Assembly (NCBI GenBank): GCA_005791855.1
Contig: SXUH01000041.1
Location: forward strand, 1-11,243
DNA from: Bdellovibrionales bacterium
GTDB lineage: Bacteria > Bdellovibrionota > Bacteriovoracia > Bacteriovoracales > Bacteriovoracaceae
DNA: 11,243 nt
Direction: 5' to 3'
The notes beneath the pieces were generated by a model. It was not told the origin of the DNA and searched no databases. It worked only from the letters and a program-made list of their open reading frames with translations. The translations under genes were made by a program, and so were the position numbers. This document shows positions 2,364 to 9,244 of the stretch, piece by piece. Each line of letters opens with the position of its first letter. Within the stretch, counting starts at the first letter, position 1.

Positions 2364-2373
2364 AAAATTGATC

Positions 2374-4050
2374 ATGGCTAAGTCATTGATAAAATTATTT
2401 TTATTTAGTTTCACATTCCCCCTTTTTGCTTCTTCCCTTTGGGAAAAAGACCTGGAGATCCTCTCACCCCGAGAGAACGTCTACGGGCTGGCGGAGAGCG
2501 AGCTCAAGGCCCGGGTGGCCGCCGGAAGGAAGGCCGCTCTCTTCTATCCTGTGACGGTCTCCGACCTCCTCCTCCCCTATGATCCCATTAGCGCTTTCTT
2601 CGACTCGGAGGCAGACGATCCGGTGAGGCAGCTCCTCTACTCGCTCGCCCGCGTGGTCTCTCCCTACAAGAACATGGACGAGGTCTACGCGTGGGTCGGG
2701 CTCCACACCTACCCTGCGGCCGCGCAGCCGGAGAACCCCAATCCGCTGCCGGAGCTCACTCCCGAGGAGAGGTCCAGGCCCATGGGAACCACGGTCTTCG
2801 AAACTGAGGACGGCGAGGCCCTCACCTTCGGCTGCGCCGCCTGCCACTCCGGGAACCTCTTCGGCGTGCGCGTGCTGGGCCTCACCAACCGCTTCCCGCG
2901 GGCCAACGAGTTCTTCCGCCAGGGCGCGACCCTCGCCCCCTACGTGAACAGCTTCCTCTTCCAGGGAGCGCTCCACACGACGGCCGGAGAACGACGGATG
3001 TTCGCGCGGGCCAAGGGGGCGCTTCGGTACGTCGGGACGAAGGTGCCGGTCACCCTCGGGCTGGACACGAGCCTGGCACAGGTGGCCCTGTCGCTCGCCA
3101 AGCGCAGGCCCGACGAGTTCGCCACCCGGACCGCCGTCTCCCACCGGTTCCCCCGGAAGAACAAGCTCGCCGAGCTCGTGGCCGACAGCAAGCCCGCCGT
3201 GTGGTGGAACCTCAAGTACAAGAACCGCTGGCTCTCCGACGGCTCCATCGTCTCGGGGAATCCGGTGCACACCAACTTCCTCTGGAACGAGATCGGCCGG
3301 GGCACGGACCTCGTCCGGCTCGACGGCTGGCTGAAGGAGAACACCCGGACCATCGAGGCCATCACCGCCGCCGTCTTCGCGAGCCGGCCTCCGAGGTACG
3401 AGAAGTTCTTCGGGAGCGGGGCCATCGACCTCGCGCGGGCCAAGCTCGGAGAGGCGCACTACAAGGTCTCCTGCCAGCGCTGCCACGGCGGTTACGAGAA
3501 GGGCTGGAGCAGAGAGGACGCCGCGGGCCTCTCGCTCGATGAGCTCCTCCAGAACCACCGGGTGACCTACCACCGGAGGACCCCGGTGAGGAACGTCGGC
3601 ACGGACCCGGGCCGGTACCTGGGGATGTTCGAATTCTCCGCCGACCTCAACCGCCTGGCGATCTCGAAGAACATCGGGACGGTGGTGGTGCCCCAGAAGG
3701 GATACGTGCCGCCGCCGCTTGACGGGATCTGGGCGCGCTGGCCTTACTTCCACAACAACTCCATCCCGAACCTCTGCGCGCTCCTCACCCGGAGCGAGGA
3801 GAGGCCCGCCACGTACCACGCCGGCGAAGCCCGGTCGAAGGAAACCGACTTCGACAGGGAGTGCGTCGGATACCCGCTGGGCGAGAAGACCCCGGGGCAC
3901 TGGAAGAAGGACCCCGACTATTTCTACGATACGACGAAGGAAGGGCTCTCCAACAAGGGCCACGACGAAGGGATCTTCCTGAGCGCTGGCCGGGAGATCT
4001 ACACCCGGGAGCAGAAGCTCGAGCTCATCGAGTTCCTCAAAACCCTGTAA
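2374..4050 (+). CDS. Exported di-heme c-type cytochrome (RoxA / cytochrome c peroxidase-like)
   Basis: A 558-residue protein with a Sec signal peptide (MAKSLIK, then a hydrophobic core to about residue 19, cleavage near 19-21), so it should act in the periplasm or outside the cell. Two CxxCH covalent heme sites are visible: CAACH (154-158) and CQRCH (367-371). KPAVWWNLKYKNRW (273-286) and PPPLDGIWARWPYFHNNSIPNL (from about 446) are typical of the large di-heme oxidoreductase group that includes rubber oxygenase RoxA and the di-heme peroxidase-like proteins. At 558 residues it is longer than classical bacterial di-heme peroxidases (about 330) and shorter than RoxA, as I recall those lengths. 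Peroxidase or oxygenase chemistry is inference from the family. The ATG at 2374 begins the signal peptide; an in-frame TTG lies 6 nt upstream. Codons for the signal peptide are AT-rich, then composition shifts sharply to GC-rich. The stop codon directly abuts the insertion sequence. Confidence 0.85.
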   Translation: MAKSLIKLFLFSFTFPLFASSLWEKDLEILSPRENVYGLAESELKARVAAGRKAALFYPVTVSDLLLPYDPISAFFDSEADDPVRQLLYSLARVVSPYKNMDEVYAWVGLHTYPAAAQPENPNPLPELTPEERSRPMGTTVFETEDGEALTFGCAACHSGNLFGVRVLGLTNRFPRANEFFRQGATLAPYVNSFLFQGALHTTAGERRMFARAKGALRYVGTKVPVTLGLDTSLAQVALSLAKRRPDEFATRTAVSHRFPRKNKLAELVADSKPAVWWNLKYKNRWLSDGSIVSGNPVHTNFLWNEIGRGTDLVRLDGWLKENTRTIEAITAAVFASRPPRYEKFFGSGAIDLARAKLGEAHYKVSCQRCHGGYEKGWSREDAAGLSLDELLQNHRVTYHRRTPVRNVGTDPGRYLGMFEFSADLNRLAISKNIGTVVVPQKGYVPPPLDGIWARWPYFHNNSIPNLCALLTRSEERPATYHAGEARSKETDFDRECVGYPLGEKTPGHWKKDPDYFYDTTKEGLSNKGHDEGIFLSAGREIYTREQKLELIEFLKTL

Positions 4051-4071
4051 ACTGCCCTACTATAGTGGTGT
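4050..4071 (+). repeat. Left terminal inverted repeat of the insertion sequence
   Basis: Begins AACTGCCC, then TACT, and ends TGGTGT. It matches the reverse complement of the right end at 17 of 22 positions, with perfect blocks AACTGCCC, ACT and TGGTGT. The transposase stop codon (4060-4062 on the minus strand) lies inside this repeat. Confidence 0.82.
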
Positions 4072-4944
4072 TGACCTTTTTTTCAGAAGCCGGTGATTGT
4101 AGAAAAATATAAAGATCTCAAGATGATCTTCTAAGCGCTTTGGGTCCTTGGTAGTGCACCAGGTTTTCCGGATGAGCCGGTTGACGTTAGCTCTCAATAT
4201 CGCGCAAGTGTGGTTGACGGCAAAGAGCGGATCGAAGGCGACCTTTTTCAGTTCACCCTGGCCGGCGATGGATCCCCTTTCGCTTTTGAAGGTCAGGTGT
4301 TTTGCGCGGGGGAGGTACGCCGTGACATACCAGGGATAACGTTGGTGTTCATCTGACTTTACGACCACCTCTGGTGAAAGGATCGGAGTGACTTTTTGGA
4401 AGAGCCTGGTTAAGCCATGGAGATGCTCATCCTCTCTATGTCCATACTTCTTCCTGGCTATGGTCGCCAGGGTTCCAAAGGCTGGAATCTGGGAGACCTC
4501 GAGAGCGAGAATCATTCGCCTATCTTCGTCAACTGCGATCGATACGCTGAGTGGTTTTAGCTTGGAATTCTCCTTAGTGATCAGGTCGTCTATCTGGATG
4601 TTGTGGATCCTACCTTTCATTCGCTGCAGATATTTTTGATTTAGCCTTGAAGAGCGCCGAGCAAGGAAAGGTAGCTTCCGCTCAACAGTTTTTCGATGAA
4701 CCCCCAGGAGGATCGCAGACCTTCTCAGCGAAACACCTGAGCACAGAAGCCTCAGGAGTGGCGTGTTCACTCTACGTCTTTTGTGCCGATAAGCTTCAGA
4801 AAAAGTTGCATGAGAGAAACGTCGCCCACAGATTTTACATCGAAATCTCTGGATGGTTTTAGAGTCTTCCTTTCTTCTGAAGCACCCGTCTTTGATGACC
4901 ATTTCCGGGAATGCGCAATTTGTGTCAGGACATTTCCTCTTCAT
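4060..4944 (-). CDS. IS1-like transposase
   Basis: A 294-residue protein that fills the insertion sequence. It starts with a zinc-ribbon-like pair, Cys5/Cys10 and Cys36/Cys39 (FRCKICGRRFS). A helix-turn-helix-like segment follows (about 63-92, GVSLRRSAILLGVHRKTVERK). A DDE-type core begins with IQIDDLITKE (Asp119/Asp120) and continues through SIAVDEDRRMILALEV to KSDEHQRYP (Asp198). The C-terminal stretch LRANVNRLIRKTWCTTK plus FFYNHRLL resembles the end of IS1-type transposases, but the position where IS1 has its catalytic Glu reads as part of FAVNHTC, so the third acidic residue is not evident. Its last codons and stop lie within the left inverted repeat, as in many compact insertion sequences. 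The ATG at 4944 gives the zinc-binding N-terminus; only a poorly spaced GAGG precedes it. A CATAAT -10-like box lies upstream. The family assignment is tentative. Confidence 0.78.
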   Translation of the reverse strand: MKRKCPDTNCAFPEMVIKDGCFRRKEDSKTIQRFRCKICGRRFSHATFSEAYRHKRRRVNTPLLRLLCSGVSLRRSAILLGVHRKTVERKLPFLARRSSRLNQKYLQRMKGRIHNIQIDDLITKENSKLKPLSVSIAVDEDRRMILALEVSQIPAFGTLATIARKKYGHREDEHLHGLTRLFQKVTPILSPEVVVKSDEHQRYPWYVTAYLPRAKHLTFKSERGSIAGQGELKKVAFDPLFAVNHTCAILRANVNRLIRKTWCTTKDPKRLEDHLEIFIFFYNHRLLKKRSTPL

Positions 4945-5063: not shown

Positions 5064-5085
5064 ACACCAACCAAGTCGGGCAGTT
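5064..5085 (-). repeat. Right terminal inverted repeat of the insertion sequence
   Basis: Read on the minus strand it starts AACTGCCC, then GACT, and ends TGGTGT, mirroring the left end at 17 of 22 positions. Its outermost two bases form part of the TAA stop (5084-5086) of the FHA-domain gene. Confidence 0.82.
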
Positions 5086-6307
5086 AGTAGACGGTGAGGT
5101 AGCTCTTGATCCACCCCAGCGCCCCCGCTCCCTCGTTGGAGATGTCGTGCACCTGCGTGGGCAGGAGGGTCTGCTTGACGTGCTTGAGCCCCTCGGGCTT
5201 GACGGCGATCACCGCCCCCACCACCTTGTGATCGTCGGTGGAGTCGAAGAGGGCGAAGGTGAGCTTGAGGTCCTTCAGGAGCTCGAGGTCGACCGTCGCC
5301 GGGATGGCCTCGTGGATGAAGAAGACCGCGGCCACGAGCTTGATCTCCTCTTCGTACTGGGGCCGCTCCTCCGGGAGGTCCGGCTTCACCAGGAGCTCCC
5401 GGGCCCGGGCGAGGAAGCGCGAGCCGTCGACCAGGACGTTGACCGTCGACCCGACCTGGGACGCGCCCCAGGGACTCAGGTCCGCGCCGGCGATGCTCTG
5501 GCAGAAGTATTTCTCCGTGTCGAGGACGCACTTGATGTCGTCCAGGAGGTTCCACAGGTGCTCCTTGGTCGGGAGCTCCGAGCTCTCGAGGAGGAACTCC
5601 GTGCTCGGAGCTCCCTCGGCCGGTGCGGGTGGGGGGACGGGGGCAGCGACGGGAGCGCTCGCCTTCGGCACCGAGAGGTCCTCTCCCACCTTCCGGATCA
5701 CGGGTTCGGGTTCGGGCTCGCTTAGGATCTGGCCATAGTAGACGGCGCCGACGAAGAGGGCGAAGATCACACCCTTCACCACCCGCATCCGGGTCTTGTC
5801 CGGTTCCGGTTTGGCCGGGGCCCTGCTCCTCGCCTCGGAGCGCTTCTGGACGATCTTCTCGTTCCGCTTCCGCACGAGGTTCTCGGTCCTCGCGGCCTGG
5901 AGTTCCTTCAGGCTGAAGGCCCGGGTGGCCCCTTCCTTGACGTCCGTCTTCGGCGCCACCGGATGTTCGGCCAGCTCTTTCAGGGTTTCCTGGACGAAGT
6001 CGACGGACTCCTGATCGCTCAGGAGGCTAATGAGGACGCTGTCTCCCAGGCGCACGGGGAAGAAGGAGGTGAACTCGACCTTCCGGCCCGGCACCAGGCG
6101 CTCTTCGTTGATGAAGCTCCCGTTGGTCGAGCCCTGGTCGATGACGAAGTAGTTGTCGTCTTCGCTCACGATCACCAGGTGCTTCCGGCTGATGCCGGTG
6201 GCCCTGAGCTCGATCTCGCAGGTGTCCCCGGAGCCGATGGCGATTCGTGGTTTGGAGAGGGGGTAGATCTTCGGATCCTCGTCTCCGACGATGACTTCTA
6301 TGCGCAT
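5084..6307 (-). CDS. FHA-domain inner-membrane protein of the pilin-like operon
   Basis: A 407-residue protein. An FHA phosphothreonine-binding domain spans about 1-95: SRKH (40-43) and STNGSFIN (60-67) are the canonical loops, while the usual IGR is IGS (Ser26 for Arg). A basic, charged region (about 130-178) leads to one membrane helix at about 177-195 (VVKGVIFALFVGAVYYG). A Pro/Ala/Glu-rich linker (196-235) and a C-terminal domain (about 236-407, with Cys260 and Cys269) follow. The basic residues before the helix suggest the FHA domain faces the cytosol and the C-terminus the periplasm. This layout recalls FHA-like ring or platform proteins of secretion systems, but I see no clear homology to one. 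It is the last gene of the operon, 44 nt after the 267-residue pilin-like gene, with no strong ribosome binding site. A role in assembly or phospho-signalling of those pilins is inference from position. Confidence 0.85.
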   Translation of the reverse strand: MRIEVIVGDEDPKIYPLSKPRIAIGSGDTCEIELRATGISRKHLVIVSEDDNYFVIDQGSTNGSFINEERLVPGRKVEFTSFFPVRLGDSVLISLLSDQESVDFVQETLKELAEHPVAPKTDVKEGATRAFSLKELQAARTENLVRKRNEKIVQKRSEARSRAPAKPEPDKTRMRVVKGVIFALFVGAVYYGQILSEPEPEPVIRKVGEDLSVPKASAPVAAPVPPPAPAEGAPSTEFLLESSELPTKEHLWNLLDDIKCVLDTEKYFCQSIAGADLSPWGASQVGSTVNVLVDGSRFLARARELLVKPDLPEERPQYEEEIKLVAAVFFIHEAIPATVDLELLKDLKLTFALFDSTDDHKVVGAVIAVKPEGLKHVKQTLLPTQVHDISNEGAGALGWIKSYLTVY

Positions 6308-6351: not shown

Positions 6352-7155
6352 CTACGGGCAGATGAGGCGGATCTTCCCACCGGAGACCGCGTCGAGCCGG
6401 ATGTCCCGGCCCGCGCAGTTGATCCCGGCCGCAGAGATGTCGAAGAAGTCGTTCAGGACGACGTTGTTCCGCAGCGGCTTGCACTCGAGGTTCCCGAGCT
6501 CGATCATCTTCTCCGGGATCTGGCCCACCGGGCACTGGATGGTGTTGAGGCGGCAGGCCCCGGTCCCCGGGTCCCAGGTGGCCGCGGCCCCGAGGTTCAG
6601 GCAGATGTTCTGCTTGGCCAGGAGGTTGGCGTCTCCCACGGCCGGGCCGCAGCTCTTGATCTTATTGTTCGCGTCCGCGGAGTAGACGAAGGAGATGGTC
6701 TTCCGCATGGTCACCCAGCGGTTCGAGCTCTGGAAGAAGTTGATCCCCTTGCGCTCGATGGAGAAGGTCACGTCCACGTCCGCGACGTCCTTGCTGATCA
6801 TGGTGGACTGTTTCAGGCCGATGGAGTCCACGCGGAAGTCCTGGTACTGGCTTTCGCCGGCGAGGAGCACCTTCATCTGGGTCTGGGTGATGTAGACGAG
6901 CTGGCTCACGTACTCCGGCGGGTTCACGCCCCGGCCCGCGAACATCATCTGGCAGCGGTCCCGGTCGTTGATCGAGGCCTGGAGGAGGGCCATGGTCTTG
7001 GCGATCTCCCCCTGGCTCCTCGCCATGGCCTCGTTCTGCGCCTGGGTATCGATGAGCTTCATGGTGACCAGGGCCATGATCCCGAGGATCCCCATGGAGA
7101 TCACGATCTCAACCATGCTGAAGCCGCGCTGGGAGGTGGAGGTCCTTAGAAGCAT
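6352..7155 (-). CDS. Type IV prepilin-like protein (minor pilin candidate, 267 aa)
   Basis: The N-terminus is a textbook class III prepilin signal: a short basic leader, then RG followed by FSMVE and a hydrophobic stretch (FSMVEIVISMGILGIMALVT, 12-31). PilD-type prepilin peptidase should cut after Gly11, and Glu16 is the conserved Glu at mature position 5. The rest is a probable periplasmic or extracellular head with eight cysteines beyond the leader (68, 169, 185, 201, 208, 225, 247, 266). Its C-terminal part (about 185-267, ending GKIRLICP) is shared with the two neighbouring pilin-like proteins. GAGG lies 5-6 nt before the ATG, within the end of the upstream gene; the two frames overlap by 10 bp (7146-7155), implying coupled translation. 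Assembly into a pilus or pseudopilus tip is inferred from the family; no pilus motor gene lies in the window. Confidence 0.88.
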   Translation of the reverse strand: MLLRTSTSQRGFSMVEIVISMGILGIMALVTMKLIDTQAQNEAMARSQGEIAKTMALLQASINDRDRCQMMFAGRGVNPPEYVSQLVYITQTQMKVLLAGESQYQDFRVDSIGLKQSTMISKDVADVDVTFSIERKGINFFQSSNRWVTMRKTISFVYSADANNKIKSCGPAVGDANLLAKQNICLNLGAAATWDPGTGACRLNTIQCPVGQIPEKMIELGNLECKPLRNNVVLNDFFDISAAGINCAGRDIRLDAVSGGKIRLICP

Positions 7156-8066
7156 GAGATCCTCAGCTTGCCGGTGCTGTCGAAGACCAGGCGGGCGTTG
7201 CTATTGGTGGTGGAGCAGCCGTTGGAGTTGATCATCAGCGGGGCGTTCAGGGCCTTGGAGATCTTCTCGCACTTCACTACGCCGAGGGAGGTGATCCCCT
7301 CGATGGTGTAGCCCACGCCGCAGGTCTTGACCCCGGTCACGAGCTGGCACTTCTGGGTGTCCTTGTTCCAGGTGAAGATCTGGCCTCCGCCGGCGGAGGG
7401 CACCGGAGGGGTGAGGGTCTCGCACAGGTCGTTCTCGAGGTTCTGGATCGAGTTCTTCCGGGCGTCCATGCAGCCGCGGAAGACGGACCCCGCGCCGGTC
7501 TTCTCGAACCGGAGGGTGAGGTAGACGGACTTGGTTTCCTTCACCCCCGCCTGCGCCGTGCCCATCGAAACTCCGGCGAGGACGTAGTCCACGTCCATGC
7601 GGTAGCGTCGGGCGATGGAGTTGTCCACGTTGTTCACGGTGGCGCCGGAGGTATCCTGCAGCTGCACCATCTCGATGTCCTCGACCCGCCAGGTGTTGCT
7701 CGGATCGCTCCACCCACCGACCTGGAAGATCGGTCCGCCCCGCACGGTGTTCCCCGCGTCCTGGAGGAAGGTCGCGGCGGTGTCACTGGTGTAGAGGGCA
7801 GCGGGGTCTTCTATCGTGGTTTTTCCATACTGGTCATTAAAGGTTGCGTTGCAGTTCCGGGTATCCGTCATGAGCTTGGACACGCTGGCGTGGTTGGTCT
7901 GGAGCTTCTGGATGTGGGAGACGTTCTTCTGGGCCTTCATGTGGTTCCCGAAGATGAGCATGGCGGTGAGGCCCGCGCCCGCGAGGAACGCGCCTCCGAT
8001 CATCAGCTCCACCATGGAGAAACCGCGGCTCCGGAGCACTCCCTTGGTACCTGGGTACAAAACCAT
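7146..8066 (-). CDS. Type IV prepilin-like protein (minor pilin candidate, 306 aa)
   Basis: First gene of the minus-strand operon. The prepilin signal is SRG followed by FSMVELMIGGAFLAGAGLTA (16-35), with cleavage expected after Gly15 and Glu20 as the Glu at mature position 5. An amphipathic helix follows to about residue 70, ending DTRNC. The head has cysteines at 72, 199, 215, 240, 249, 266, 284 and 305, the same number and order as its two neighbours. The tail motif is GKLRISC. GAGG sits about 5 nt before the ATG at 8066. Like GspH/GspJ- or PilW-type minor pilins, it should be processed by a prepilin peptidase and insert in the inner membrane before assembly. Which system it serves cannot be read from the window. 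Confidence 0.88.
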   Translation of the reverse strand: MVLYPGTKGVLRSRGFSMVELMIGGAFLAGAGLTAMLIFGNHMKAQKNVSHIQKLQTNHASVSKLMTDTRNCNATFNDQYGKTTIEDPAALYTSDTAATFLQDAGNTVRGGPIFQVGGWSDPSNTWRVEDIEMVQLQDTSGATVNNVDNSIARRYRMDVDYVLAGVSMGTAQAGVKETKSVYLTLRFEKTGAGSVFRGCMDARKNSIQNLENDLCETLTPPVPSAGGGQIFTWNKDTQKCQLVTGVKTCGVGYTIEGITSLGVVKCEKISKALNAPLMINSNGCSTTNSNARLVFDSTGKLRISCF

Positions 8067-8290
8067 TCGACCTCATTCGTTATCCAGTGATTTTAATACA
8101 CTACCAGAATATTACCAGGGGGTTTTAACTTCCTACAGGTTAGGGGGGGTGGGATTTCTCTCTGTCCGGGGGATCGACGAGGATTGTTGGCAGTCGGAGC
8201 AGCTTATCCCGAAGGATTTGCTTCAGTATTAAGCTTCCCGGCGCTTATGGACTTAATTCCAAAGATCGGCTTTCGAGTTTAAGATGGGAC
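8067..8290. promoter_or_regulatory. Divergent control region between the pilin operon and the third pilin-like gene
   Basis: A 224-bp spacer between divergent starts. For the minus-strand operon, a -10-like TAAAAT (8090-8095) lies 23 nt before the ATG; no good -35 matches it (CTGGTA at 17 bp). For the plus-strand gene I find no convincing sigma70 promoter, so another sigma factor or an activator is possible. The middle holds several G-runs on the plus strand (about 8117-8174, with runs of five, seven, three and five G). No hairpin terminator or conserved RNA is apparent. Confidence 0.4.
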
Positions 8291-9244
8291 ATGCTCAAGT
8301 TCTTTCCAGAGATTCACCGCCGGCGTGAAGCGGGCTTTTCCATCGTACAGGGGATGGTCCTCACGGCCGTCTTCGCGGCCTCGGCCCTGGTGCTGGTCGA
8401 CTACGTCCGGGACCAGAAGCTCATGGTGAAGGGCGCGGAGACCCGGGAGAGCATCGAACAGCTCCACGAGGTGATCTTCGGGATCCTCCAGTACCGGGAC
8501 AGCTGCGAAGCCACCGTCCGAGGCAACAACGTCATCGTGGGGAACGTCGTCCCGAACAACGTGGCCCTCCCGCTCGACACCATCTCCTACGCCTCCGGCG
8601 TGGACGCCGCCGGCAACATCGAGTCCTCGGAGATGTTCCGGGACTTCGACTTCGCCGGGAACCCGAACCTCGAAGGGACCTACATGAACGGCCAGGTTTC
8701 GATCGAAGACATGTCGCTCACGTTCCCCGACACGCCCCCGAACACTCCGCTGAACCCCGCCGTCCTCACCATCAGCTACCAGCGCCTCAACTCCTCGGCG
8801 GCCCGGCGGACCAAGAAGGGCTACGGCGGGAAGGACCTCCGGAAGGTGATCAACATCGTCTTCCAGAAAGACAAGAGTGACAACTTCCTTTCCTGCTACG
8901 CCGTGAACACCTCGGTGAACGCGCTCATCAGTAACCAGGACCTCGCCCAGGAGTTCTGCGAGAGCATGGGCCTTGACAACGCCGACCCGGCCCTCACCGA
9001 CAAGCTCCTCGTGTGGGACCAGGAGCGGAACATCTGCACCTTCCAGGAACGCACCTGCCCGGACGGCTCCCTCTTCGTCGGCATCCGCAACACTGGTGAG
9101 ACCATGTGCGAGCAGCTAGGGAACTGGGGCTTCGGCACCCTCATCGACTCCACCGTGGACTCGAACTGTGCTCCGGCGCAGAGAACTAACGTGCGGTTCG
9201 TCGACACCGGCTCCGGTCAGGTCCGGATCCGGTGCTCCCCGTAG
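8291..9244 (+). CDS. Divergent prepilin-like protein with Gln at mature position 5 (317 aa)
   Basis: The leader MLKFFPEIHRRREAG is followed by FSIVQGMVLTAVFAASAL (16-33). This fits a prepilin peptidase site after Gly15, but mature position 5 is Gln20 rather than Glu, as happens in some tip-type minor pilins (GspK is the known example of a pseudopilin lacking this Glu). The head has cysteines at 72, 202, 223, 249, 256, 273, 293 and 315, in register with the two minus-strand pilin-like proteins, and the tail SGQVRIRC matches theirs. It is therefore a paralogue, transcribed the opposite way from the shared 224-bp spacer. The ribosome binding site is weak (GATGGG close to the ATG). The last 28 bp overlap, tail to tail, the end of the GNAT-C39 gene. 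A role as initiator or tip subunit is inference. Confidence 0.85.
   Translation: MLKFFPEIHRRREAGFSIVQGMVLTAVFAASALVLVDYVRDQKLMVKGAETRESIEQLHEVIFGILQYRDSCEATVRGNNVIVGNVVPNNVALPLDTISYASGVDAAGNIESSEMFRDFDFAGNPNLEGTYMNGQVSIEDMSLTFPDTPPNTPLNPAVLTISYQRLNSSAARRTKKGYGGKDLRKVINIVFQKDKSDNFLSCYAVNTSVNALISNQDLAQEFCESMGLDNADPALTDKLLVWDQERNICTFQERTCPDGSLFVGIRNTGETMCEQLGNWGFGTLIDSTVDSNCAPAQRTNVRFVDTGSGQVRIRCSP

Follow-up and report, generated by a model that had tools for sequence, protein, structure and literature searches.

Three adjacent pilin-like genes with eight conserved cysteines

The window analyzed here, one whole contig of 11,243 bases (SXUH01000041.1) in a metagenome-type Bdellovibrionales assembly (3.0 Mb in 462 contigs, 60% complete) from an uncultured bacterium related to predators, contains three adjacent genes coding for pilin-like proteins, which we refer to as P1, P2, and P3. 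P1 (6352..7155, minus strand; 267 amino acids [aa]) and P2 (7146..8066, minus strand; 306 aa) overlap by 10 bases and both carry the N-terminal motif GFSMVE, with Glu at position +5. P3 (8291..9244, plus strand; 317 aa) is transcribed divergently beyond a 224-base gap and has GFSIVQ, with Gln at +5; it is the candidate cap subunit of the assembly considered below. Both promoters are expected within the gap (8067..8290), and a sigma-70 consensus scan of it yielded no promoter. Each protein has eight cysteines (C1 to C8), at residues 68/169/185/201/208/225/247/266 in P1, 72/199/215/240/249/266/284/305 in P2, and 72/202/223/249/256/273/293/315 in P3. The lengths, coordinates, and all 24 positions agree with the initial annotation of this DNA, as does its observation that C5 and C6 are 17 residues apart in all three window proteins.

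The cysteines are conserved throughout the P1, P2, and P3 families (12/12, 13/13, and 15/15 members with all eight, respectively), and in an unguided MAFFT alignment of these 40 rows no column is invariant apart from those of the prepilin glycine and the eight cysteines. The 603-aa P1 of locus L091, which has a 218-residue-class insertion, and a P1 fragment in L085 were excluded from alignments A7 to A9; the identical 603-aa P1 of L042 was excluded from alignment A3 and included in the counts of cysteines and +5 residues and in the identity and distance analysis. C7 is just nearly invariant in alignment A1, due to one row misaligned there. Across the families the C5-C6 distance is 17 in 30 rows, 18 in five, 19 in three, and 16 and 34 in one each. 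A C2-C3 distance of 16, overlooked previously, is common to every P1 and P2 row (12/12 and 13/13) and to only 4 of the 15 P3 rows, such that in P1 and P2 it is the stricter of the two spacings. Other motifs proposed from the window proteins vary in how well they extend to the families: a Trp precedes C4 within eight residues in 34/40 rows, and an Asp or Arg lies within four residues upstream of C1 in 27/40, leaving that motif a weak feature, and the tail G[KQ][ILV]R[IL]xC is present in its exact form in just five of the 40.

The three proteins are a duplicated set, as had been suggested. Profile-profile comparisons align them over nearly their whole lengths (E values of 3.6e-37 for P3-P2, 2.4e-30 for P3-P1, and 2.7e-31 for P2-P1), and pairwise local alignments of the C-terminal halves score 75 to 85, above all 500 shuffles in each pair even with the cysteines held fixed. 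The earlier statement that the rest of the sequences differ widely thus masks homology across the full length. In the tree, P1, P2, and P3 form three separate well-supported groups (99/95, 100/99, and 100/99), each type being one side of a well-supported branch; the triplication thus, as judged from the tree, predates the spread of these genomes. Outside the prepilin glycine and the cysteines the proteins change fast, with median between-genome identities of 0.29 (P1), 0.31 (P2), and 0.32 (P3), compared to 0.66 and 0.34 for the neighboring RoxA-like and forkhead-associated (FHA) proteins. A mirror-tree (distance covariation) test for a complex was nondiscriminating and did not single out the trio from neighbor genes.

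Pilin-like modules and cysteine-rich heads

The prepilin glycine is present in all 40 rows, giving each protein the class III signal peptide that is characteristic of the type IV pilin superfamily. N_methyl is matched above its cut-off in P1, below it in P2, and not in P3, and at an E value of ≤0.05 in 15 of the 40 members; TIGR02532 is matched in 12. Structure models of P1 and P3, both built as single chains, have an N-terminal helix of about 50 residues, a pilin-like module, and a small head following the last pilin strand, the arrangement of an extra C-terminal module that defines modular pilins. The two models place the cysteines in matching secondary-structure elements. By sequence, the head itself is placed in no known family: among the 40 head sequences no Pfam family is matched in more than one member (best E value, 0.018), and no PDB sequence is matched at an E value of ≤10. 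Neither of the outcomes that the initial annotation had named as refuting its reading (unrelated heads with nonmatching cysteines, or each head in a different known family) was thus observed. Foldseek searches of the whole models against the PDB (and for P3 also against viral models) returned nothing at an E value of ≤0.001; in both cases the top-ranked structure is a chain of the Xcp pseudopilus. DUF5417, a below-cut-off match for P2 (E value, 0.14), was dropped, being matched in just one of the 40 heads (E value, 0.048).

The three proteins had been described as having a single eight-cysteine head, a description that the models suggest should be amended. Because C1 (residue 68, 72, and 72) falls, in the P1 and P3 models alike, within the short helix that follows the long one of the pilin, the predicted unit is more aptly divided into a pilin module, holding C1 and C2, and a C-terminal head, holding C3 to C8. 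Cysteine patterns vary among 158 open reading frames (ORFs) of the collected loci that match the 40-row profile, although these are non-independent and their patterns were taken from local alignments. The commonest patterns are all eight cysteines (46), C1 only (31), C1-C2 (28), C1-C6 (18), and C1-C3 (12), and six ORFs have C3-C6 or part thereof without C1. The correlation of co-presence is 0.96 for C7 and C8 and 0.89 to 0.95 among C4, C5, and C6, but only 0.30 for C1 and C2. From these patterns we infer three cysteine modules, a stalk (C1-C2), C3-C6, and C7-C8. The C5-C6 piece has the form C-P-x-G-x4-G-x4-G-x3-C and occurs in two to four copies in some cousins (L192, L193, L198, and L205); because of this recurrence the 17-residue spacing is, on the sequences at hand, the mark of a repeat unit.

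Distribution of the cassette

A head-only profile searched against 368 Bdellovibrionota genomes finds full-length heads in 14, with three copies in 12 and one in two (G092 and G096). Thirteen of these belong to the genus of the window (26 genomes) and one to another genus of the same family; half-heads spanning about C2-C6 occur in additional genomes with weaker E values (best, 2.5e-8). Protein database searches give one other relative for P2 and three for P3, the closest to P3 (47%) being from a "Bacteriovoracaceae bacterium," and the 40-row profile finds at least eight relatives besides P3 itself among the best 7,998 candidates scored. An initial profile scan (A4) of named genomes found no relative. 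The wider relatives retain the pilin part with other C-terminal parts behind it.

Among 80 loci collected through the RoxA-like neighbor, the full trio is present in 11 and P1 alone in two more (the L085 fragment and L103), all 13 being metagenome-assembled genome records. Eight of the 11 complete sets share the gene order of the window; those of L091 and L098 are inverted, and that of L108 is rearranged. P1, P2, and P3 are one co-inherited three-gene cassette. Phase-variable inversion was considered and rejected: 16-nucleotide inverted repeats (88% and 94%) flank the cassette in the window and L091, are absent in L098, and are not set apart from chance.

A candidate tip complex and its alternatives

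Residue +5 is Glu in 12/12 P1 and 13/13 P2 sequences and Gln in 15/15 P3 sequences, and a trio with one member lacking Glu5 is the composition of GspIJK- and PilHIJK-type tips. Minor pilins are reviewed as forming a tip complex from which assembly begins, with a cap subunit that lacks Glu5 (PMC10191384). Within the phylum, three further sets of three or four pilin genes (L202, L203, and L204) have the same Glu, Glu, Gln composition, and other sets depart from it (Gln/Asn/Gln in L046, L047, and L049; Glu/Glu/Glu in L199). The L046, L047, and L049 sets are a different three-pilin set, found in three genomes that belong to one genus and adjoined there by TldD/PmbA peptidase genes. The longest additions are on relatives of P3, reaching 1,335 aa with 67 cysteines. 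All 13 genomes tested, nine with the cassette and four without, encode members of the prepilin peptidase, T2SSF, and T2SSE families. PilY1 (PF05567) was found in none of the 368 Bdellovibrionota genomes, but no control genome matched either, so this is a lead only.

We favor, at a probability of roughly 60%, a heteromeric tip complex of modular minor pilins, similar to GspIJK, PilABC, or KilLMN, with P3 as the cap and disulfide-braced heads used for adhesion. Each protein would consist of a class III signal peptide, a long helix, a pilin-type beta module that contains C1 and C2, and a small C-terminal head braced by C3-C8, with predicted disulfide pairing of C1 with C2, of C3-C6 among themselves, and of C7 with C8. 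Once cleaved by prepilin peptidase, the mature proteins, with Glu at +5 in P1 and P2 and Gln in P3, would associate through their helices and prime a type IV filament with P3 on top. Three related heads would then be displayed on the pilus for binding to a surface or a prey cell, and the trio probably helps the pilus to grip one or the other. The heterotrimer, the disulfides, the tip position, the capping by P3, and the adhesive role are all features that we infer.

It is conceivable, if unlikely, that P1-P3 instead belong to a type II secretion system (T2SS) as minor pseudopilins whose heads select or push exported proteins. The Xcp chain that heads the structural rows for both models is in keeping with this, as are the several T2SSE and T2SSF copies in each of the 13 genomes and weak GspH and GspI matches in two and one of the 40 members. 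But no member reaches a Gsp model cut-off, where cut-offs were given; more broadly, matches to Gsp/Pil minor pilin equivalogs are all below cut-off in P1, absent in P2 and P3, and weak in one or two of the 40 members. The occurrence of the cassette in 13 of 26 genomes of the genus is also odd for a core secretion part, and the large cysteine-rich and Hint additions of relatives fit display better than a piston. Patchy presence would suit accessory minor pilins that are spread along a filament without a single tip unit and have some other function in the pilus, for example in DNA uptake or aggregation, and the best NCBIfam match of P1 is the competence minor pilin ComGE (E value, 1.2e-5; 25.3 bits, where the cut-off is 49). 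We regard this as improbable, since a constant three-gene set with a member lacking Glu5 is the make-up of a tip complex. In the loci examined no pilus gene adjoins the cassette, as might be expected of prepilin-like proteins that stay anchored in the membrane for display and are never built into a filament, but the long conserved N-terminal helix with its processing site and the co-inheritance of the trio suggest assembly, leaving this explanation only a slim chance. The least probable is true membership of the KilLMN-type Tad (Flp) pilus tips: predatory relatives have Kil-like Tad systems, and KilLMN, for which its authors found a possible Bdellovibrio bacteriovorus counterpart by structure, also comprises three modular pilins with predicted disulfides (PMC12075869), but the N-termini of P1-P3 match the GFxxxE class, and no Tad family is among the Pfam (E value, ≤0.05) and NCBIfam (E value, ≤0.01) matches of the 40 members.

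Relatives with additional domains

In some relatives the head is followed by additional domains, Hint among them. PT-HINT follows the cysteine head in a P3 relative with two copies (L036:6980-10987; E value, 1.6e-30), and Hom_end_hint is matched above cut-off in the same position in a P2 relative (L041:8893-10464) and in P0012, with below-cut-off Hint matches in L034:1-1608 and L039:7859-9508. By eye, the Hint domains of these pilin-like proteins have a cysteine at the start and HN and then K at the end. The three homologous heads could conceivably form a pseudo-threefold, disulfide-braced platform on which exchangeable modules dock, these being self-processing Hint domains in some lineages, with the tip releasing a part or attaching covalently to what it touches; we consider this elaboration quite unlikely.

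Phage-fiber-like pilins, in which a type IV pilin N-terminus is joined to the S74 intramolecular chaperone (PF13884; E values, 2e-14 to 1e-16), are encoded at L050:6251-7705, L051:8683-9783, L205:6529-8637, and L206:6576-7706; this architecture is already on record (PMC8179133). Two adjacent and very similar pilin-like proteins built of repeats (L204:6038-8653 and L204:8717-10999) contain 66 cysteines and at least 59, respectively, the latter count being a lower bound, as the locus end cuts the protein; the first has no Pfam match.

Neighboring genes

An FHA-domain protein (5084..6307, minus strand) is encoded 44 bases downstream of P1. It was rejected as a necessary partner, as 7 of the 80 RoxA-anchored loci (L083, L084, L086 to L088, L092, and L100) have the FHA gene directly before a GNAT-C39 gene without the cassette, and because it is kept in these cassette-free relatives it is probably a neighbor rather than a component. 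The FHA gene is nonetheless present in every cassette-bearing RoxA-anchored locus, and a loose link may exist. A RoxA-like/di-heme cytochrome c peroxidase-like protein (2368-4050, plus strand) is 60 to 68% conserved beside the cassette site whether or not the pilins are present. Between it and the FHA gene is an IS1-like transposase ORF (4060-4944, minus strand; E value of 3e-10, below cut-off), which lies in the kilobase where the GC content of the window is lowest (0.482) and was not seen between the RoxA-like and FHA genes in the relatives' loci examined. The window also encodes a GNAT plus DUF3335 protein.

Relation to known tips and implications

The nearest working analogue would be the KilLMN tips of Myxococcus, which are needed for predation (PMC12075869). 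There too, three pilin-like proteins with modular C-terminal domains are encoded together, the largest member is at the extremity, the system is found in predators, and numerous disulfides are predicted, so that the earlier generalization of few cysteines in most minor pilins holds only in part. By the same description, KilLMN are TadE/F/G homologues of a Tad pilus, whereas P1-P3 have a GFxxxE-type N-terminus and a single head module common to all three.

GspI-GspJ-GspK (XcpVWX) likewise are three minor pilins, one of which lacks Glu5 and caps the tip (PMC6211770 and PMC10191384), but the extra domain is on one member only, GspK, where it is a different kind of domain and interrupts the pilin sheet (PMC8179133). 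Modular pilins are an established idea, and in PilB and PilC of Streptococcus sanguinis a functional module, vWA and lectin-type, respectively, is grafted behind the pilin module and is likely tip exposed (PMC8179133); the P1-P3 head differs in lacking Pfam and PDB sequence matches and in being on three paralogues. The MAT fibers of B. bacteriovorus are also predator surface proteins with exchangeable tips, but in the account given their N-terminal signal peptide precedes about 130 aa of beta-rich domain, and no pilin motif is mentioned (PMC10769870). We found no description of this cassette in the open-access literature, the scope of a search that subscription papers and preprints fall outside.

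If the tip complex interpretation is true, P1-P3 would add to the Tad-based KilLMN tips a second way of building a predator pilus tip, in which one head is triplicated on three minor pilins and further domains are grafted behind it. The eight cysteines together with the Glu/Glu/Gln trio would then serve as sequence marks for tip complexes in genomes without similarity to known tips, and the proteins would be candidates for the still poorly known prey recognition step in Bdellovibrio-like organisms.
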